From NCBI RefSeq assembly GCF_004011835.1, contig NZ_RKLN01000005.1:62001-126000 (forward strand): a stretch of 64,000 nucleotides of DNA, written 5' to 3'. Below, in pieces: positions 607 through 8,356 of the stretch (positions are counted from its first letter, which is position 1; each line of letters begins with the position of its first letter). The translations under genes were made by a program, and so were the position numbers. This DNA comes from Rhodococcus spongiicola. Its GTDB lineage: Bacteria; Actinomycetota; Actinomycetes; Mycobacteriales; Mycobacteriaceae. Below the pieces are notes generated by a model. That model saw nothing but the letters and a program-made list of their open reading frames with translations, did no database searches and was not told where the DNA came from.

Positions 607-1158
607 TCAGGCTCTCAGCTCGAGCGTCAGTTTCACCAGCGTGGCCGCTGCCTCACAGGGATCGGGGTGGTCCGCGGCCTGATACTGCACCCACCAGCCG
701 ATCACGCCCGAGTCCGGTGCGCCCGAAGCGATCCCACACGTGTCAGGATCCTGCGGTTGCCGCGATAGCACCGCGCGCCGGCCGTCGACGCTCACATCCT
801 CGACCATGTAGCCCAGACGGCGCGAGGTTTCACGCTTGACAGCGAGCGAACCGGTCTCGAATCAGTTGAACGTCACACGAACCGGACCGGCCGGTCCTGC
901 CACCGACCAGCGACAGATCACACCGAAGAACCCCCGTTCGATTGCTCCCCCACCGACAGAGTCGGCTATCTACTCGGAATCGACGGCATCGCATTCGGTG
1001 AGCAGCGCCGCATACCGCGACGACGCCGGTGGCTCCGTCGCTCTCTCGGGTGTGCCCGGAACAATCGCGGCGCACCCGGCCACCAGGAGGAGACCGATCG
1101 TCCCGGCCGCGGCGCTCGCGGTGGACGCGATTCGGCGTCCGCTGCTCGCCCGAACCGA
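607..1158 (-). pseudogene. DUF3558-family lipoprotein pseudogene (two in-frame stops, no start)
   Basis: Read from high to low coordinates, one uninterrupted frame encodes a lipoprotein signal ending in the lipobox LLLVAGC (near 1070-1090), a domain start around TECDAVDSE, and a C-terminus SGVIGWWVQYQ...DHPDPCEAAATLVKL. This matches the DUF3558 pattern, including the final DPC...AA motif shared with the gene at 7181-7711. The frame is broken by TAG at 970-972 and TGA at 862-864. The second aligns with the Trp of the FSWY motif in the other copy, so it looks like a simple TGG to TGA change. A stop at 1159-1161 precedes the signal peptide and no ATG, GTG or TTG lies between. Three independent lesions without a frameshift point to a decayed gene rather than a sequencing error. 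Confidence 0.8.
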
Positions 1159-1231
1159 TCATTCTGTCTGGCACGCCCTCACCCGGCCTGTCGGCACGGC
1201 GTTGCCCTGTCGAAGCCATGACGAAGAAGCC

Positions 1232-1774
1232 CTACTCACTCACTGAGCGGAGAGAAGCGTCCAGCGACCTCATGAGCTGCGCGAGGCGACCCTTGCCAAC
1301 CGGCGCCAGGGGATACCGGCTGAGTACATCAGCCAACGTCGGCGTGGCGCGTTGCCGAGCCTGCGCCACCAGCTCGTTCCCGACAGCAGGGTCGTCGCCG
1401 GCGTTCAACTCGGCGATGCGCGCTGCACTTGCTGCAGCGCGCAAGATGTGACCGACCTGGTGGGCCTTGGCGATCGGGTGAAGGTAGGCGGCGGACGCCG
1501 CATCGCCAGCGCAGCGTGCAGCGAGACGTGCAGCCTCTGTGGGTGCCTCCTTCGCAGCTCGGTGTGCGTCCAGCGAAGCTACGCGCTGCAGCTTGGTCCT
1601 GCTAGCGCCGTTGACGAACTCCCACGCAGCATCGATGGCGGCGCGAGGCCGAGGATCATCAGGACTCACGGCCTCGAACACTGGTAGGACTTCCTGAGCG
1701 CTTTCCGCCACGTAGCGTGTGACAGCGCGCAGTTCCTCGATGGTCAGCTCGAAGTCGCCGGACCCAGTCGTCAT
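1232..1774 (-). CDS. Imm-5-like putative immunity protein
   Basis: An all-helical, alanine-rich soluble protein of 180 residues. It carries the pattern I associate with the Imm-5-like (putative immunity protein) family: LTIEELRAVTRYV, then VLPVFEAVSPDDPRPRAAIDAAWEF, RVASLDAHRAAKEAP, and AAYLHPIAKAHQVGHI. The ATG at 1774 gives a start directly before the conserved region; the open frame extends upstream but those residues look like translated spacer. No polymorphic toxin or secretion gene is next to it, so it is either an orphan antitoxin or the family has another job. Members are common as lone genes in actinobacteria. The function is inferred from the family only. Confidence 0.6.
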   Translation of the reverse strand: MTTGSGDFELTIEELRAVTRYVAESAQEVLPVFEAVSPDDPRPRAAIDAAWEFVNGASRTKLQRVASLDAHRAAKEAPTEAARLAARCAGDAASAAYLHPIAKAHQVGHILRAAASAARIAELNAGDDPAVGNELVAQARQRATPTLADVLSRYPLAPVGKGRLAQLMRSLDASLRSVSE

Positions 1775-2286
1775 CGCCAGAGCTTCCCACATGCCCACCC
1801 GCCGGCGGGTGCGATGGTTCACGCAGACCGGCACCGAGACGGTCGCCGTTCCCGACCGCTACCGTGCGCTGTCGTTGTGGCAGTAACGTTTTCACAGTGC
1901 CATTGGAGCAACCAGGCCCGGTGGAAGCATGGCTACGATCAGGGTCTCGAGAAACTGGCTACGAGATCGATTGGTTTGTTCGGCTTGGTACTCGAGACTG
2001 GCAGTCCGTTCGCTTGCCTGCGGAGCGCGGAATACAAACTGGCCGGGGCTTCGCCTCGCGCTCCGGTTCTGGTTCTGCGACCGAACCCGAAGCGCGCCCC
2101 CACGACGACTGCGCAAAGGCTGATCGCGAGTCCAAGGAAGCGGAAGCCGAGTCGGCCGCACAGCGGACCGGCTCCGCCGTTCTCCGAGGGTGCTATTCGA
2201 ATTGAGTGTGGTTGTTACGGTCCATGTTTGGGCTATTTACGCTTCAGGTGTCCCGGGGTATCATGGCGGCATGTTTTTGGGACGGG
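1775..2286. other. 512-base stretch without a supported gene
   Basis: Frames are open on both strands but none has a start, ribosome site and recognisable domain together. On the minus strand, one frame from about 2190 to the TGA at 1939-1941 reads as a hydrophobic segment (LGFRFLGLAISLCAVVVGARFGFG) followed by a basic tail, with no start codon. It may be the remnant of a small membrane protein gene. The promoter of the 1232-1774 gene should lie just above 1774. Confidence 0.4.
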
Positions 2287-2314
2287 TTGAGGGCATTGTG
2301 ACGGGCCGTGGCGC

Positions 2315-2332
2315 GGCGCACGCAAGCGCGCC
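2315..2332 (+). repeat. array hairpin copy 1 (GCAA tetraloop)
   Basis: GGCGCAC-GCAA-GCGCGCC: a 7-bp stem with one A-C mismatch closed by a GCAA loop, a member of the GNRA tetraloop class. It precedes degenerate ORF copy 1. Confidence 0.6.
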
Positions 2333-2374
2333 CCCGCCTCTGGCTCCCCTCGGTTGGCGTCGAGGAAGCTAGCG

Positions 2375-2450
2375 GTGAATACCGTGCCCCAATCTTAGCC
2401 GTGCACTAGGTGTTGTGTTGGAGGAGTGCACCTTTCGGCCCTCCAACTGA
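2375..2450 (+). pseudogene. degenerate small ORF, array copy 1
   Basis: It begins like the other copies after a weakened ribosome site (AGGAAGCTAGCG then GTG at 2375). The frame hits TAG after a few codons. In another frame the conserved core is still readable as LSRALGVVLEECTFRPSN ending at TGA near 2450. A one-base indel therefore separates start and core. Confidence 0.5.
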
Positions 2451-2524
2451 CGAGCTGTGTTCTCGCATTTCGAGCGGAGCGCAGCGGCGCCACCGGTCCA
2501 AGGCAGCGTGACAGGCCGTGATGC

Positions 2525-2542
2525 GGCGCGCGCAAGCGCGCC
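2525..2542 (+). repeat. array hairpin copy 2 (GCAA tetraloop)
   Basis: GGCGCGC-GCAA-GCGCGCC: a perfect 7-bp stem with a GNRA-type loop. The following pyrimidine stretch reads CCCCACCTCTCGCTC, which can pair with an AGGAGGTGG-type ribosome site. Confidence 0.65.
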
Positions 2543-2583
2543 CCACCTCTCGCTCTTCCCGGTTGGCTTCGAGGAAGCTGGCG

Positions 2584-2664
2584 GTGAATACCGTGTTCCT
2601 AATTTTAGTCGCGTTCTAGTTGTTGTGTTGGGGGAGTGTATGTTTCGCCTCCCTTACCGGTGAG
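2584..2664 (+). pseudogene. degenerate small ORF, array copy 2
   Basis: GTG at 2584 opens a short frame (MNTVFLILVAF) that stops at TAG. In a neighbouring frame the family core continues as NFSRVLVVVLGECMFRLPYR to TGA at about 2663. The copy is broken by an indel in the same way as copy 1. Confidence 0.5.
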
Positions 2665-2730
2665 CTACGGGATCGCATCTCAAGCAGAGCGCAGCACACC
2701 GATTAGGGGCGGCATGACAGGCCGCGGAGC

Positions 2731-2748
2731 GGCGCGCGTAAGCCCGCC
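2731..2748 (+). repeat. array hairpin copy 3 (GTAA tetraloop)
   Basis: GGCGCGC-GTAA-GCCCGCC: a GNRA-type loop with one mismatched stem position compared with copies 2 and 4. Confidence 0.6.
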
Positions 2749-2792
2749 CCCGCCTCTCGCTCCCCCCGGTTGACTCGAAAAGGAGGTGGACT

Positions 2793-2879
2793 ATGTGTTG
2801 CATTTTTTTCTTGAATCGTGTGCTTGGCGTTGCATTGGAGGAGTGGACGTTTGGGTACGGACCTCGTCTCTCTCTGTAA
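2793..2879 (+). CDS. small ORF of the array, copy 3 (28 aa)
   Basis: ATG at 2793 follows AAAGGAGGTGGACT, an almost ideal ribosome site at ideal spacing. The peptide starts MCCIFFLNRVLGVALEEW and ends GPRLSL before TAA. It shares NRVLGVxxEEWTF with copies 4, 5 and 8. No signal peptide or known family is recognised. Whether it is translated is not shown; the conserved SD-start-frame-stop arrangement is the evidence. Confidence 0.45.
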   Translation: MCCIFFLNRVLGVALEEWTFGYGPRLSL

Positions 2880-2976
2880 GGCGACCGTCTTTCTCTCTAG
2901 CTGGTGAGCTGCGGTCCCGGGTTTCGAGCGGAGCGCAGCAACATCCAGTGAGGACAAGCGTGACAAGCCGCGGAGC

Positions 2977-2994
2977 GGCGCGCGTAAGCGCGCC
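2977..2994 (+). repeat. array hairpin copy 4 (GTAA tetraloop)
   Basis: GGCGCGC-GTAA-GCGCGCC: a perfect 7-bp stem with a GNRA loop, ending about 33 bases before the SD site of ORF copy 4. Loop variation among copies (GTAA, GCAA) keeps the GNRA rule. Confidence 0.65.
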
Positions 2995-3038
2995 CCCGCT
3001 TCACGCTTCCCCTCGTTGACCCGAGAAGGAGGTGGACT

Positions 3039-3164
3039 GTGAACGAGTCTATTATCATCAATCATGCGCTAGGCGTTGCATCGGAGGAGTGGACGGTAGT
3101 GTCCGGACCTCATCTTTCCGCGTACAGCGACCGTCTTATCGTTCCCCAATCAATCATGTGTTGA
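3039..3164 (+). CDS. small ORF of the array, copy 4 (41 aa)
   Basis: GTG at 3039 follows GAGAAGGAGGTGGACT. The peptide begins MNESIIINHALGVASEEW, continues TVVSGPHLSAYSDR and ends QSIMC. It is the longest copy and is collinear without gaps with copy 5 over about 36 codons. Its end runs into a start-less fragment of another copy (NHVLSVLLEECIFGVPGS, frame continuing to about 3209), which marks a recombination junction. Confidence 0.5.
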   Translation: MNESIIINHALGVASEEWTVVSGPHLSAYSDRLIVPQSIMC

Positions 3165-3313
3165 GTGTTCTGTTGGAGGAGTGCATATTTGGGGTCCCCG
3201 GCAGTTGAGCTGCGGCCCCGCGCCTTGAACGGAGCGCGCCAACACCGATTGAGGGCAGCGCGACAGGCCCCCGTGCCTCGCTCTGCCCGGATGACTCGGA
3301 AAGGAGGTGGACT

Positions 3314-3427
3314 GTGAACGAGTTCATAATCATCAATCATGTACTGGACGTTGCATCGGAGGAGTGGACGTTAGTGTCCGGACCTCGTCTTTCTCTGTAC
3401 GGGGACCGTCTTGTCATTTCCCGTTGA
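3314..3427 (+). CDS. small ORF of the array, copy 5 (37 aa)
   Basis: GTG at 3314 follows GGAAAGGAGGTGGACT. The peptide begins MNEFIIINHVLDVASEEW, then TLVSGPRLSLYGDRLVISR and TGA. It differs from copy 4 by substitutions only, spread over all codon positions, so the frame is kept but purifying selection is not evident by eye. Its stop codon lies within the TTGACCCGAGAAGG element that leads copy 6, so copies 5 and 6 are almost contiguous. Confidence 0.5.
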   Translation: MNEFIIINHVLDVASEEWTLVSGPRLSLYGDRLVISR

Positions 3428-3446
3428 CCCGAGAAGGAAGTGGACT

Positions 3447-3521
3447 GTGAAGTCCATACATATCAATCATGTGCTGGGTGTTCTGTTGGAGGAGTGCATA
3501 TTTGGGGTCCCCGGCAGTTGA
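3447..3521 (+). CDS. small ORF of the array, copy 6 (24 aa)
   Basis: GTG at 3447 follows GAGAAGGAAGTGGACT, a slightly weakened ribosome site. The peptide is MKSIHINHVLGVLLEEC then IFGVPGS and TGA. It has Cys in place of the Trp of copies 3-5 and a shorter tail. The same tail is found in the start-less fragment after copy 4, so one derives from the other. Confidence 0.45.
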   Translation: MKSIHINHVLGVLLEECIFGVPGS

Positions 3522-3614
3522 GCGCCTTGAACGGAGCGCGCCAACACCGATTGAGGGCAGCGCGACAGGCCCCCGTGCCTCGCTCTGCCCGGTTGACTCG
3601 GAAGGAAGTGGACT

Positions 3615-3656
3615 GTGGAGATTCTTATTAGTTGTTTTTGGTGTTCACAAGGTTGA
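3615..3656 (+). pseudogene. truncated small ORF, array copy 7
   Basis: GTG at 3615 after GGAAGGAAGTGGACT opens only 13 codons (MEILISCFWCSQG) before TGA. That stop lies within the GGTTGACTCGAG element of the next copy, so the conserved core has been deleted. Confidence 0.45.
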
Positions 3657-3675
3657 CTCGAGAAGGAAGTGGACT

Positions 3676-3795
3676 ATGAATTACATATTCATCAATCGCG
3701 TGCTAGACGTTCCATCGGAGGTGTGGACGCTTGCGATCGGCCCGGTTGCCACCGGGCGCGACACCATTGGACTTTCTCTACCATACGCGTTCTAG
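3676..3795 (+). CDS. small ORF of the array, copy 8 (39 aa)
   Basis: ATG at 3676 follows GAGAAGGAAGTGGACT. The peptide begins MNYIFINRVLDVPSEVW and continues TLAIGPVATGRDTIGLSLPYAF. The core is kept but the tail is unrelated to that of copies 4 and 5. A partial extra core (VLGVPLEDCTF) follows at about 3789-3830 in another frame, again a fused copy. Confidence 0.45.
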   Translation: MNYIFINRVLDVPSEVWTLAIGPVATGRDTIGLSLPYAF

Positions 3796-3896
3796 GTGTT
3801 CCGTTGGAGGACTGCACGTTTAGGCTCCCCTGCCAGCGAGCTGCGGGCCCACGTTTCGAACGGAGCGCAGCAACACCGATTGAGGGCAGCATGACG

Positions 3897-3937
3897 CTTC
3901 GCACCCGGGAGCCACGCAATGGCTCCCGGGTGCGAAG
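3897..3937. repeat. perfect 18-bp inverted repeat at the array end
   Basis: CTTCGCACCCGGGAGCCA and its exact complement flank a five-base loop CGCAA. It interrupts the last array module directly after GCAGCATGA. Neither side has a T-tract. It could be a terminator acting with Rho for the amidase transcript, or a mobile-element end. Only the symmetry is certain. Confidence 0.7.
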
Positions 3938-4232
3938 TGGGCGCGCCCCGGACTCGGAGCCCGGAGGGACGTGGCTATTCGGAAGTTTGGGTCGCGCGTC
4001 AAGGGCCAGGGTTACAGAGACGCCCGACGGCCGGTTCGCAGTCGAGATCACGCGCATCCCAGACGCAATCTGGCCAACAGAAATCGGCGACCGGGTGACC
4101 TGTCGCCGCATCCATAGTGTCGACGGCGGTGGCAGTCGCGTCCCCGTCGTTCTACCGGCGAGTTTCGCCTCCACGAAGGCGGCGTCGACCTCGCAGCAAC
4201 GACTCATCAATACGACGGCTCATCGATACGAC
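3938..4232. other. 295-base stretch between array and amidase, no firm gene
   Basis: The plus-strand frame open from 3669 to 4511 includes a fairly protein-like stretch (ARVTETPDGRFAVEITRIPD) at about 4005-4065. It has no start or ribosome site here and then runs antisense to the amidase. It may be a gene remnant. Two near-identical phrases GACGACTCATCAATACGAC and GGCTCATCGATACGAC lie at 4198-4235. Confidence 0.35.
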
Positions 4233-5645
4233 TCAGACGGGTGGGCGACGAAGATGCCAGTCGGTTGCGCTCTGGAAGGCGCTTCCCGCCCTGGCCAGGA
4301 GGAGCTCGTCGAGGTGGCGCGACACGAGTTGAAAGCCGATTGGCACGCCGGCGCCGTCGAAGCCGCCCGGCAGGGTGATCGTCGGGTTGCCGGAGAAGTT
4401 GAACGGGGCTGTGTACCGGAAAACGTTCGGCAGGTTGTCGGAGTCGTACAGCAGCTGGGTGAAGCGATCGAGCGTCAAGTCACCCACGGGCAAGACAGGA
4501 AGAAGAACTAGGTCGAGATCCTCGAAGTGTGCCTCGAACCTTCCGCCGAAGGCTCGCCTCTCGTCCTCGATGCGGGCGATGTCTATGCCCGAGACCGCGT
4601 ACGCGGAACCCAGGAGCTCCCGCATCCACCGACCGTATTCTGTCGACCGAGACGGAAACGTCTCTTCGTGCACAACTGCCGCCTCGGTCCCCGCGTAAGC
4701 GCCCCATCCTGCCGCCAACCCCATCGTGGACGGCAGCCGCACCTGGCAAATGGCCGCGCCCAGGCTCTCGAACGTTGCCAGCGCATCGCGAAGGACGTTC
4801 ACCACCGCTGACTCGACACCGTCGAAGGCAGCCTCTGGGTCGAACCCGATCCGCATTCCTTTCATTTCCGGCGGACCTACGGAGTAGTCGGGCACTTCGG
4901 CCCTGCCAGCGGTCGGATCATTCACGTCGGGACCGGCGATGGCTCGCAGCACGTGGTAGGCGTCCTCGGCGCTTCGCGCGATGGGGCCGACAACGTCCAG
5001 CGACGGCGCCATGCCGAACACGCCATGGACACTGACGCGTCCCCATGTCGGCTTGATGCCGGTGACAGCGTTCATGTTGCACGGGTTGCGGATAGAGCCG
5101 CCTGTATCGCTTCCGAGGCTGGCCGTGCACATCCCGGTCGCGGTGGCGACAGCCGAGCCGCTGGACGACGCTCCAGCCCAGTAACTCGAGTTCCACGGGT
5201 TCACGACCGCCGGAGAGTCCGGGTGGTACTCGCCTCCAGCAGCCTCGGTCAGGTTCAGCTTCCCGAGCAGCACTGCTCCGGCACGACGCAGGCGAGAAGC
5301 CACCGTTGCGTCGTAGGCAGGTATGAAGTTCCGGTGGATCGACATACCGGCGGTGGTCCGAATGCCCTCTGTGTAGACCAGATCCTTCAGGCCAATCGGA
5401 ACGCCGTGCAGGGGTCCCCGGTGTTCGCCGCGGGAGATCTCCTCCTCGGCTCGGCGCGCATCAGCGAGGGCACTCTCGGCCAAGACCGTCAGATAGGCCT
5501 CGAGAACAGGGTTGAGCCGATCGATTCGCTCCAAGTGGGCTCGAGTCACCTCAACCGGCGACAACGCCCCGGTGCCGAAGTCCCGGGACAGATCGGAGAT
5601 CGAGGCGTAGCACAGATCGATATCCCCCATTACCTCACCCCCCAC
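4233..5645 (-). CDS. amidase signature (AS) family hydrolase
   Basis: A 470-residue AS-family enzyme of the usual length that hydrolyses an amide bond on an unknown small substrate. The catalytic triad is visible: Lys87 in GVPIGLKDLV, the cis-Ser in GASSSGSAVA (residues 158-167), and the nucleophilic Ser184 in GSDTGGSIR. The N-terminal helix with ARRAEEE and the C-terminal FNFSGNPTITLPGGF are typical. It starts at 5645; an internal ATG at 5630 (MGDIDLCYAS) is an equally good start. No gatB or gatC neighbour is present, so it is not the tRNA amidotransferase subunit. A methyltransferase lies upstream on the same strand with a 312-base gap. Confidence 0.85.
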   Translation of the reverse strand: MGGEVMGDIDLCYASISDLSRDFGTGALSPVEVTRAHLERIDRLNPVLEAYLTVLAESALADARRAEEEISRGEHRGPLHGVPIGLKDLVYTEGIRTTAGMSIHRNFIPAYDATVASRLRRAGAVLLGKLNLTEAAGGEYHPDSPAVVNPWNSSYWAGASSSGSAVATATGMCTASLGSDTGGSIRNPCNMNAVTGIKPTWGRVSVHGVFGMAPSLDVVGPIARSAEDAYHVLRAIAGPDVNDPTAGRAEVPDYSVGPPEMKGMRIGFDPEAAFDGVESAVVNVLRDALATFESLGAAICQVRLPSTMGLAAGWGAYAGTEAAVVHEETFPSRSTEYGRWMRELLGSAYAVSGIDIARIEDERRAFGGRFEAHFEDLDLVLLPVLPVGDLTLDRFTQLLYDSDNLPNVFRYTAPFNFSGNPTITLPGGFDGAGVPIGFQLVSRHLDELLLARAGSAFQSATDWHLRRPPV

Positions 5646-5957
5646 TTCTCACTATCGCGCAACCATCGCAGTCCAAGCAAGACTCACGAGACACAGAGCC
5701 TCAGCCGAGTCCTTCTTGCCAATATCACAGAGCCCATCCAAGTCTCATTATCGATTGCAGGAGAGGTGCTTTCACCTACAGCAGCGATCGGGACACACAG
5801 ATCCGCAGACAATCCAGGTTGAAAACTGGATCACTCTTCCCTTCGACTCGATGTGGCGCCCATCAGACCAGTTCTTCACGAAGAGAACAATATTGAGCTG
5901 CCAATTCACAGTCATCAGACTCGCGTTGGACAGGGCATGAGCAGGTGCCGTACCACG
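5646..5957. other. 312-base gap between methyltransferase and amidase
   Basis: No supported gene. Base composition is more AT-rich than the neighbouring coding regions, suggesting promoter or horizontally acquired spacer DNA. The amidase promoter should be here. No clear hairpin or operator is visible. Confidence 0.35.
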
Positions 5958-6707
5958 TCACTCCCGGACACACTCCATGACAACCGCGGGTGGAAAGTTC
6001 AGGTAGTCATCCCAGTAGTCGCCCTCGTCGCCAGCCTCGGGCGCGGGTGACAGTTCGGGCATGTGCACCGCGAAATCACGGAACCCAGCATCACGGAAGG
6101 CTGATTCATACGCGTCGATCGGCAGGTAATAGTTCATGATGACAAGGGGGGAATCATCCAGGAGTGCCGTCAACTGGATCGGTGCTCCCTCGAACACGGA
6201 CTCGGCCAGCTCTATCGAGAATCCATACTTGCGATAGTTGGGCACCTTGCTAAACGAGTACAAGTCCGGATTGGTGGTGATGGTGACGAACCGTCCTCCC
6301 GACTTGACGCGGCACGCCAAGCCACGGCACATGCGCCCGAGTTCGTCGCGGTCTCGCGCGTACATCAGCAGGTAAGCGGCGACCGCGACGTCGAAATCCT
6401 GTTGCGGCACAACCGAGCGGGCGTCAGCAACGATGTACTCGATACCCAGCGGTTCCCGCTCCTCCTGCTTTCGGGCCAGTCCGATCATCTTTTCGGAAAT
6501 GTCCAGCCCCACCATCGGGTCAGCGCCGGCCCGGCGGAAAATTCGGGTGAAATCCCCTGAACCGCAAGCGACATCGATAACCTTTCGACCCTTCACGTCA
6601 CCGACATGCTTCAGGAACGAGTACGCCTCGATACGGGATCGGACAGGAAAGTCCTTGGTCTGCTCATACTTCTCAGCGATGAGGCCTTCGTTGTAATCGA
6701 TGACCAT
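5958..6707 (-). CDS. class I SAM-dependent methyltransferase
   Basis: A 249-residue soluble Rossmann-fold methyltransferase. Motif I is VIDVACGSGDFTR (about residues 43-55), followed by the acidic motif II region GLDISEKMIGLARK, then the motif III-like YIVADARSV and FDVAVAAYLLMYA. The ATG at 6707 has GGGGGC directly upstream and begins with MVIDYNEGLIAEKYEQTK, a standard beginning for this class. The substrate cannot be read from the sequence; the C-terminal part ends with ECVRE. It lies upstream of the amidase in the same orientation, but the gap argues against tight coupling. Confidence 0.8.
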   Translation of the reverse strand: MVIDYNEGLIAEKYEQTKDFPVRSRIEAYSFLKHVGDVKGRKVIDVACGSGDFTRIFRRAGADPMVGLDISEKMIGLARKQEEREPLGIEYIVADARSVVPQQDFDVAVAAYLLMYARDRDELGRMCRGLACRVKSGGRFVTITTNPDLYSFSKVPNYRKYGFSIELAESVFEGAPIQLTALLDDSPLVIMNYYLPIDAYESAFRDAGFRDFAVHMPELSPAPEAGDEGDYWDDYLNFPPAVVMECVRE

Positions 6708-7180
6708 GCTGCCCCCATGATCCATATGCGGCCGCATCGAGCACCCATCCCGCACAGCTTGCGACCGTCTACCCGAAGTTTACTCGCGGGGCGCTGTCAC
6801 GTCTTGATACCAGCAAAGCCAGGTCTCGAATGGGCTTGCCCGACTCATCGAGGGCGTTTACCGCAGCTATGCGCTACGTTCTCGGACAACCACAATGACG
6901 ACTCCTCAGGGAGCGTCGACCCGCTAAAGCCGACGGCGCGAAGCGAAGTGAGATCGTGTCTCGCACAGGTACCGCCGCCGCCTTGGCGCATCCGCCAAAC
7001 CGATAGCCGTCCGCGGTGATCAACGCCTTCGGTTCAAGTTGACCGAGCCGAACGCCTGCGGCGGCGCGGAACAATCCTGTCCACACGCCAGGTGACGCTG
7101 GCGCAACTGCCCATCCCGACATCCTTCTCACTCGGTGTAGCCGCTACACCGGTCTCACTCGGTCCTCAATCCCGACCTGC
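6708..7180. other. 473-base stretch without a supported gene; 17-base inverted repeat
   Basis: Short open frames lack starts and motifs. A perfect inverted repeat GGTGTAGC-C-GCTACACC lies at 7134-7150, just beyond the end of the DUF3558 gene. It could be an operator or half of a weak terminator for that gene. The methyltransferase promoter is expected near 6710-6800. Confidence 0.4.
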
Positions 7181-7711
7181 TCAGGGCACGGCCCTCGACA
7201 CGGTCAGTTCCGCGAGCTGTCGGGCCGCTGCGCACGGATCGGCCGTCGGCACCTCGCCGGCGTACCAGGTCGACCAGTGCACGAAGTCGTCGTCGAACTG
7301 GACCCCCAGTTCGCACGGCCGGCCCGAACCGGAGGCGACGAACCCCGGATGACCGCCAACCTCGATGTCGTTAGCCGGACGCCCGATCAATTCACTATCT
7401 GCCCGCTCGCGTCCGATGGGACTGCCTCGGTACCAGGAAAACGACACGTGCGGAGCACCCTGACCGTCCTGCGCCGACATTTGCCACTGGCAGCCCACCA
7501 AATTGCGGACGACAGTCGCGAACCCACGGATTGCGAATGCCCCGGCGACCTCATCGTCGGTGACCAAACCGTACTCCCCGAAGAAATCCCGTGTATCTGC
7601 CTCGCGCTCCTGGACGTTTCGGTCCCGGCGTGAATGTCGGTCGCACCGCATCCCGCGAGCACCAAAAGGCCCACCAGGACACACTGGGACGCCCACCTGC
7701 CTGCGTGACAT
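7181..7711 (-). pseudogene. DUF3558-family lipoprotein gene with displaced signal-peptide frame
   Basis: The frame from ATG 7711 gives the intact mature domain: DTRDFFGEYGLVTDDEV, FATVVRNLVGCQW, HVSFSWYRGSPIGRERA, and the terminal DPCAAARQLAEL. This is a DUF3558 lipoprotein, a family of actinobacterial cell-envelope proteins. Its first 30 residues (MSRRQVGVPVCPGG...) have no signal sequence. The adjacent frame over the same DNA encodes GLLVLAGCGATDIHAG, a perfect lipobox with Cys at 7648-7650, but has no start codon. Two compensating indels, around 7680 and 7620, would restore one reading. The gene is thus frameshifted, or the sequence carries two errors. It is paralogous to the pseudogene at 607-1158. 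Confidence 0.65.
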
Positions 7712-7729
7712 AGTGCCGAACCCTGCGGG

Positions 7730-8356
7730 TCAGAGCGCGGGCGACGCGGGTGGCGTTGCCGGTGCGAGCGACGTCAGCGCGGCGTCGAGCTGTGCCGACC
7801 AGCACCGCACGATCTCTGTCCGACGGCGCGAGTCGTCGGTCAGGATATCGGCGAGCCCAAGCCCGCGCGCGAGGTCGAGGGTGGCCTGTACGAGCCGCCG
7901 GACGGTGGGGTCCGAGTCGTCGACCCCGAGACTCTCGATAGCAGTGCGGTGCGCAACCCGACCGAACCGCTCCTCGAGCGGAAGGATGCGCGCCCGCAGT
8001 TCGGGGTCGGCGGCCGCCGCGGTCCATACCTGCAGTGCCGCTTTGAACAGCGTTCCCGTGTAGTAGTCGACGAGTCGGCCGATCACCGCTTCGGTGCGCC
8101 CGTTCCCTTCAGGCAGTTCAGTGACCTCACGGCGCGCCTGTTCCATCCGGCTATCGAACATGAACTCGAGCGCCGCGGTGATGAGATCCTCGCGCGTGGG
8201 GAAATGATGCTGTGCCGCCCCGCGCGAGACGCCTGCACGCTGAGCGACCACCGCCACCGTCGTAGCCGACCAACCGAACTCGACCAGGCTGTCGACCGTC
8301 GCTTCGAGGAGCCGCTGCCGGGTCACGCGGCTCCGGTCCTGTTGTGGTGCACGCAT
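7730..8356 (-). CDS. TetR/AcrR-family transcriptional regulator
   Basis: A 208-residue repressor-type protein. The N-terminal helix-turn-helix reads TRQRLLEATVDSLVEFG, TTVAVVAQRAGVSRGAAQHHFPTREDLI, the standard TetR pattern. The C-terminal ligand-binding half ends LARGLGLADILTDDSRRRTEIVRCW, a tail common in regulators near acyl-CoA metabolism genes. GTG at 8359 directly precedes ATG 8356; GGGAGAGGG lies upstream and fits either. It is divergent from the 38-residue peptide gene and convergent-in-strand with the enoyl-CoA hydratase cluster but separated by a terminator. Its target is therefore open: the peptide gene or the catabolic operon. Confidence 0.85.
   Translation of the reverse strand: MRAPQQDRSRVTRQRLLEATVDSLVEFGWSATTVAVVAQRAGVSRGAAQHHFPTREDLITAALEFMFDSRMEQARREVTELPEGNGRTEAVIGRLVDYYTGTLFKAALQVWTAAAADPELRARILPLEERFGRVAHRTAIESLGVDDSDPTVRRLVQATLDLARGLGLADILTDDSRRRTEIVRCWSAQLDAALTSLAPATPPASPAL

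Follow-up and report, generated by a model that had tools for sequence, protein, structure and literature searches.

The window analyzed here is a 64,000-nucleotide stretch of the Rhodococcus spongiicola genome (contig C25, positions 62001-126000; 3.97 Mb in 29 contigs) and carries an array of direct repeats at about 2282-3895, within an overall array region of 2280-3940. The repeats contain short hairpins and small open reading frames (ORFs) that begin behind Shine-Dalgarno (SD) sites, and the element extends beyond them, from a promoter-like site at 2236-2264 through a hairpin at 3897-3937. We refer to this array as array A. A second array, array B, lies on contig C24 of the same genome, and both arrays recur, with corresponding flanks, in the sister species R. 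xishaensis. A 126-base piece of array A matches a second site in its own genome (E 1.9e-28, its own place excluded), and a 601-base piece matches R. xishaensis (E 6.5e-148); a chance origin of the array is therefore impossible.

The number of repeat units depends on what is counted. The boundary GGCAGCGTGACAGGCC occurs seven times and delimits six tandem modules, whereas counting the core instead gives nine copies, five of them within SD-started ORFs and four (at 2400, 2610, 3155, and 3786) without an SD upstream. The original prediction, made from the DNA letters alone, spoke of at least eight copies; the repeats it described are there. A typical module begins with GTGACAGGCC and continues through hairpin 1 (GGCGCGC-GYAA-GCGCGCC), a pyrimidine tract, GGTTGACTCGAGAAGGAGGTGGACT, a GTG or ATG, and a variable segment; its second half consists of the core CGTGTGCTAGGTGTTGTGTTGGAGGAGTG, the stem GAGCTGCGG...CGCAGC, and GATTGAGGGCAGC, which runs into the next module. 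Six strong SD sites are each followed by a short ORF of 13-41 codons, which we call ORF2 (Table 1), and the five starts at 2793, 3039, 3314, 3447, and 3676 are preceded by AAGGAGGTGGACT or AAGGAAGTGGACT. For these five, the predicted near-ideal SD, GTG or ATG start, and open frame of 24-41 codons were all recovered, with 28, 41, 37, 24, and 39 codons and the predicted core or a variant of it. The accompanying claim that most copies have a GNRA-capped hairpin does not hold for the SD copies. A search for hairpin 1 in array A that allowed up to five mismatches located it at four places only; among the SD-started ORFs it precedes those at 2793 and 3039 and is absent before those at 3314, 3447, 3615, and 3676. 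A palindrome-like stretch, GCCCGGTTGCCACCGGGC, lies at 3740-3757 inside ORF 3676; matching residues occur in one R. xishaensis copy and are missing from another. At the two ends of the element, the site at 2236-2264 is the sole promoter-like match in 1900-4100 (0.4 expected), and the tail hairpin folds at -45.9 kcal/mol (z -6.94).

Table 1. Features of array A and its surroundings (window coordinates)
Feature	Position	Strand	Remarks
Island	1051..7187	.	~6 kb, common to R. xishaensis; Imm5-like gene, array A, amidase, methyltransferase
Upstream flank common to arrays A and B	2113..2235	+	within-genome A/B homology starts at 2113
Promoter-like TTTACG-17-TATCAT at array head	2236..2264	+	second hexamer inside telomere-shared TATSATG box
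Array head	2247..2358	+	TATSATG, GACGGGTTGAG, hairpin 1, CCCCGYCTCT; homologous to inner part of Prescottella plasmid telomeres
Module 1	2298..2507	+	weak SD only, without ORF2
Hairpin 1 copy	2315..2332	+	GCAA loop, 6/7 pairs
Module 2	2508..2713	+	weak SD only, without ORF2
Hairpin 1 copy	2525..2542	+	GCAA loop, 7/7 pairs
Hairpin 1 copy	2731..2748	+	GTAA loop, 6/7 pairs
ORF2 copy	2793..2879	+	28 codons (MCCIFFLNRVLGVALEEWTFGYGPRLSL), SD AAAAGGAGGTGGACT; 1/84 positions differ from R. xishaensis counterpart
Hairpin 1 copy	2977..2994	+	GTAA loop, 7/7 pairs
ORF2 copy	3039..3164	+	41 codons, GTG start; 2/123 differences from R. xishaensis
ORF2 copy	3314..3427	+	37 codons, GTG start
ORF2 copy	3447..3521	+	24 codons, GTG start
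Degenerate ORF2 copy	3615..3656	+	SD and GTG, 13 codons, frame shifted relative to core
ORF2 copy	3676..3795	+	39 codons, ATG start; 1/117 differences from R. xishaensis
Array tail resembling telomere tip palindromes	3885..3975	+	contains perfect 18-bp stem 3897-3914/3920-3937

Linear plasmids are common in rhodococci, and it is to their ends that the array is related. Against plasmid sequences, all ten records matching the array region were Prescottella equi plasmids of 120-125 kb, matched at the record ends (best E 7e-18), and the three of these that were examined are all recorded as linear. The terminal 293 bp of one P. equi plasmid in turn match 73 records, all from Rhodococcus or Prescottella. 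Among the 60 matches listed, the best place lies no more than 305 bp from a record end in 58, the exceptions being internal places in R. pyridinivorans pGZ01 and in a Rhodococcus sp. AH-ZY2 record, and 29 of the 60 align from the head part on. The array heads match a Prescottella telomere at E 9.2e-22 (array A) and 1.8e-24 (array B), and an alignment of 14 telomeres with four array heads has the TATSATG box, an ACGGG block, and hairpin 1 in common (with gaps in some); the box reads TATGATG in 14/14 aligned telomeres and TATCATG in the four heads. At the opposite end, the array B tails of both species align to telomere tips with local scores of 46-58, whereas 300 plain shuffles gave 27-32 at best. 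In R. xishaensis the array B tail alignment reaches the very end of the telomere, whose final bases, AGCGCCGCGG, are aligned with AGCGCCGTGG.

The likeness to the invertron telomeres of Rhodococcus and Prescottella linear plasmids (pVAPN, pNSL1, pBD2, and others) extends over the TATSATG box, hairpin 1, GAGCGGAGCGCAGC, GGCAGCGTGAC, and the tip palindromes, and because the alignments of head and tails match the telomere parts in sequence, the array has the telomere order of head, repeated body, and tip. A GCTXCGC central motif of rhodococcal telomeres is described (PMC7276702), and pVAPN has been classed as invertron-like and likened to pNSL1 (PMC5434932). The array nevertheless departs from such telomeres in lying inside a chromosome, in the repetition of the inner module, in an insertion of ~70 nt that carries the SD and ORF, in a hairpin 1 loop of 4 nt rather than 3, and in that no second inverted end was seen. 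ORF2 is an addition absent from the telomeres compared. Array A lies about 64-66 kb into a 435-kb contig, with synteny on both sides, and array B is at about 333-335 kb of a contig of 458 kb; neither is at a replicon end. With a telomere query, 56 of 301 family genomes gave a match at E ≤0.001, many of them weak; R. spongiicola and R. xishaensis each have five telomere-match places, all within the arrays, two candidates per genome having been fully scored. A pattern for the head, run over 84,980 species genomes, found three stretches, namely the two R. xishaensis arrays and one at the end of a 73-kb contig from P. subtropica, where the match starts 290 bp from the contig end.

The ordered match of head, module body, and tail to the terminal ~290 bp of linear plasmids, together with the location of the matches at plasmid ends, leads us to read the array as an internalized and amplified telomere. 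More precisely, it would be a nearly complete invertron-type linear-plasmid telomere that was caught in a Prescottella (Rhodococcus) chromosome and amplified there, a reading to which we give a probability of about 0.78; on these sequence comparisons its origin as an amplified internal telomere is well supported. From left to right the anatomy would be a sub-telomeric head with the promoter-like TATSATG box, six inner telomere modules in the window (hairpin 1 ... GAGCGGAGCGCAGC ... GGCAGCGTGAC), and one copy of the tip palindromes. In Prescottella telomeres the inner module is bracketed by two imperfect direct repeats at a distance of 141 bp (GGGTTGAGAGCAGCGTGACGGGCC and GATCGACGGCAGCGTGACGCC in pVAPN2012), and amplification may have proceeded by slippage or unequal exchange between them; the module boundary of the array, CACCGATTGAGGGCAGCGTGACAGGCC, resembles a blend of both. 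The array is thus a variant of a known structure and not a new kind of system. The original prediction knew of no named system with this layout; an internal tandem telomere array was indeed not found reported in the literature searched, a search outside which most subscription papers fell, but the building block itself is familiar.

Array B is a segmental copy of array A, with homology running from 2113 to 4031 and additional amidase pieces at 4612-4698 and 4795-4874. As the arrays occupy the same two sites in both species, they are older than the species split, unless they were exchanged later. Array A contains six SD-started ORFs in one species and eight in the other, and since their order differs as well as their number, the array evidently rearranges. 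The rearrangement and several tests of translation agree with the predicted family of tiny proteins, amplified in tandem and perhaps recombining; the origin in a telomere had been missed. Array B is surrounded by repetitive genes that by eye encode candidate NHL/YVTN-type repeat proteins, and identity between the two species is only 71-81% at 700-1500 bp upstream of the array B head, compared with 86-98% nearer to it.

Evidence that ORF2 is translated comes mainly from the reading frame. The spacing from start to core is 15, 18, 21, or 24 nt in 22/24 SD copies, always a multiple of 3, and a single degenerate orthologous pair accounts for the two exceptions (16 nt); copies without an SD have spacings of 25, 26, or 43 nt, 0/9 being multiples of 3. 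The pattern used for this count missed the first module of the window's array A, and the SD copies are mutually related, so that few independent length changes lie behind the result. A start codon is present after 24 of the 25 SD sites counted (23 and two weaker ones). The 81 codons that separate start from core, taken from 16 distinct segments, carry T at position 2 in 46 cases (permutation p 0.00025, which is only a guide because the copies are related) and C or T at position 3 in 65. In array A, three intact orthologous ORFs differ between the species at 4/324 positions, compared with 28/488 in the rest of the blocks (p 7.9e-4), which were picked after the data had already been looked at and were trimmed of a non-orthologous core stretch. 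The SD stretches of these three and of the degenerate copy differ at 1/72 positions, and in ORF 3039 the two species begin to differ again at the final codon and the stop. Taken together, this amounts to moderate evidence for translation of ORF2, and for array A the balance tips slightly toward its ORFs being translated.

If so, the ~70-nt insertion and its SD may have turned the modules into translation units for peptides of 21-41 residues, with a variable hydrophobic N terminus, an RVLGVxLEEWTF-like core, and a variable C terminus. Array A, transcribed from its head, would make a set of related microproteins, while the copy, array B, would be decaying. One could go further and propose that the captured telomere was domesticated: once its modules had gained ribosome-binding sites, they would have come to act as a store of microproteins that recombines and diversifies, with expression driven by the promoter-like box of the former telomere and gene conversion carrying sequences from module to module and from array to array. 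The locus may serve as a microprotein store, but this scenario as a whole strikes us as rather doubtful; the locus is probably a telomere fossil with little fitness effect left.

A number of observations weigh against the account given so far. Of the telomeres among the 60 matches listed, 31 align over the tip half only, without the head. The array A tail of the window scores 40, 42, 30, and 31 against four telomere tips where the best of 300 plain shuffles reach 30, 37, 32, and 30; for two of the four it is barely above shuffles, which are moreover blind to palindromes. The direct-repeat signal is weak, with p about 0.03 by plain shuffles in two Prescottella telomeres and 0.10 and 0.84 in two from Rhodococcus (the latter pBD2), and no plasmid backbone gene was recognized beside the array. 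With regard to the ORFs, pN/pS between orthologues, at 0.54 over eight pairs, favors translation, but its Fisher p is 0.075. The ratio of nonsynonymous to synonymous substitution rates (dN/dS) is 0.70 among the cores of 21/24 SD copies, a small difference from the 0.83 of SD-less cores (n = 17). The array B ORFs diverge like their surroundings or more (9/75 compared with 51/994; 12/168 compared with 24/364), a third pair giving 7/81 against 3/15 with few surrounding positions, and array B as a whole diverges between the species like its near flanks. Finally, the three intact array A pairs are conserved at synonymous sites too (1/78), which gene conversion or a constraint on the RNA would explain as well as coding would.

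A rival account holds that the locus is a functional microprotein operon in which selection acts on the peptides, the palindromes being no more than inter-cistronic RNA hairpins, telomere-like by descent or by chance. The conserved frame between start and core, the start codons behind 24/25 SD sites, the promoter-like head, and the low divergence of the array A ORFs and SDs (4/324 and 1/72, with 28/488 around them) are what such an operon would lead one to expect. However, head, module, and tip match telomeres in order, array B shows no constraint, and no relatives of the peptides were found: they match 2/401 family genomes, both of them array carriers, and none of the other 399, nor were relatives found in viral contigs, in PHROGs (17 peptides), or in Pfam, for which one composite peptide was searched. 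The lack of a homologous ORF in these 399 genomes and a dN/dS among copies of 0.70, not far from 1, both lean away from the tiny-protein family originally envisaged, and we regard the operon as improbable. LDR and QUAD/SIB are tandem small-protein repeats in which each unit has a peptide frame and an SD; the array differs from them in that the hydrophobic stretch of its peptides is short by eye and that the 1900-4100 scan gave no opposite-strand promoter-like site.

A still-working DNA element, whose internal modules are bound by telomere proteins and act as recombination sites or as decoys for incoming linear plasmids, would explain the retention of GCGNAGC loop motifs, of which eight lie on the + strand within 2287-3895 (the whole window is not enriched, with 88 against 83 expected), and the head being 96% identical between species compared with 89-91% for three island stretches (gaps counted). 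Yet hairpin 1 is decaying, with 162/182 standard pairs over 26 copies in four arrays and changes that are one-sided by eye, its loop has 4 nt where telomeres have 3, and the two draft genomes gave no telomere match outside the arrays among the two candidates scored in each; this makes a working element quite unlikely. Still harder to credit is the suggestion that the array descends from a real, leaderless telomere gene started by TATGATG..ATG. In telomeres that pass the pattern the box does lie 6 nt before an ATG or GTG, and in many of them, e.g. in pVAPN2012, P. subtropica, and pPE111, the frame stays open as far as the tip, but it is broken early in pNSL1 and pDND3A, and the pattern failed to match two plasmid ends (L124 and L125). 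For 12 telomeres and 51 codons, a set that leaves out pNSL1 and pDND3A (both with broken frames), ZM15 and pGZ01 (both with a deletion), duplicates, and the right end of pVAPN2012, dN/dS is 1.0 in frame, like the 1.05 and 1.00 of the shifted frames, and with values of about 1 in all three frames such a gene was rejected. A structured RNA family was likewise rejected: neither of the two Rfam matches in the region 1500-5000 (E 0.5 and 0.71) reaches the gathering score, folding of two modules gives z values of +1.36 and -2.05, and pairs of hairpin 1 are broken. The absence of matches in phages, viral contigs, or PHROGs (17 peptides) disposed of a phage origin. An integron cassette array, prompted by GTTGAC-like ends, was dropped since the modules are paralogous, and for an array of precursors of ribosomally synthesized and post-translationally modified peptides, prompted by some C termini ending in C, no modifying enzyme was recognized among the four neighboring proteins scanned, in the absence of a dedicated search.

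The surroundings of array A suggest how it is distributed. Matches to the window stop at 1051/1004 and resume at 7187/7191 in two genomes of the genus (G002/G007), and stop at 595 and resume at 7783/7758 in two others (G005/G006, G006 being P. subtropica). In these four island-less genomes, out of 12 other genus genomes, the flanks are separated by 52-133 bp, and the rpsL side of the window is followed by sequence that begins in the window at 7187-7783, whereas R. xishaensis keeps the island. Because the flanks nearly adjoin in the four, window 1051-7187 is an insertion common to the two array-bearing species. The 12 other genomes show neither the array nor a close orthologue of the amidase (identity 27-39%), a peptide profile matches 2/14 genomes, and the array head has single short matches in G003 and P. 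subtropica only. To the left of the array, a gene at 1235-1834 (-) encodes an Imm5-like putative immunity protein (PF21805, E 8.3e-19), possibly an orphan immunity gene of the island; 8/10 plasmid records similar to this flank are from Streptomyces, and no rhodococcal plasmid is among the matches listed for both island flanks.

Two further telomere sequences lie inside contigs. In the single-contig Prescottella genome G008 there is a single decayed telomere at C1:909111-909332, internal like the array, but in one copy, with no array and no SD-started ORF seen; it shows that telomere capture recurs. The other is in family genome G153, inside contig C3 at 807994. On the reading as an internalized telomere, the R. 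spongiicola locus shows what may become of a telomere trapped in a chromosome, here multiplied, reshuffled between two species, and duplicated at another site, with the single decayed telomere of a relative for comparison; nothing on the fate of such a telomere was found in the literature searched. Should the ORFs be translated, the locus would also allow one to trace how structural, non-coding DNA gave rise to new small genes.

The TATGATG box is a separate lead. Found in many rhodococcal linear plasmids at a distance of about 265 bp from the tip, it points outward, precedes an ATG or GTG by 6 nt, and is promoter-like; variants are AATGATG at the right end of pVAPN2012, TATCATT in L087, and TAGCATG in L097. 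As the frame behind it, with dN/dS at 1.0, shows no coding selection, the box is conserved as DNA or RNA, and an outward telomeric transcript and a protein-binding site are candidates for its role. In pGZ01, two telomere sequences lie tail to tail in the middle of the record, at 117959-119212, reflecting either a genuine fusion of telomeres or a join made during assembly.

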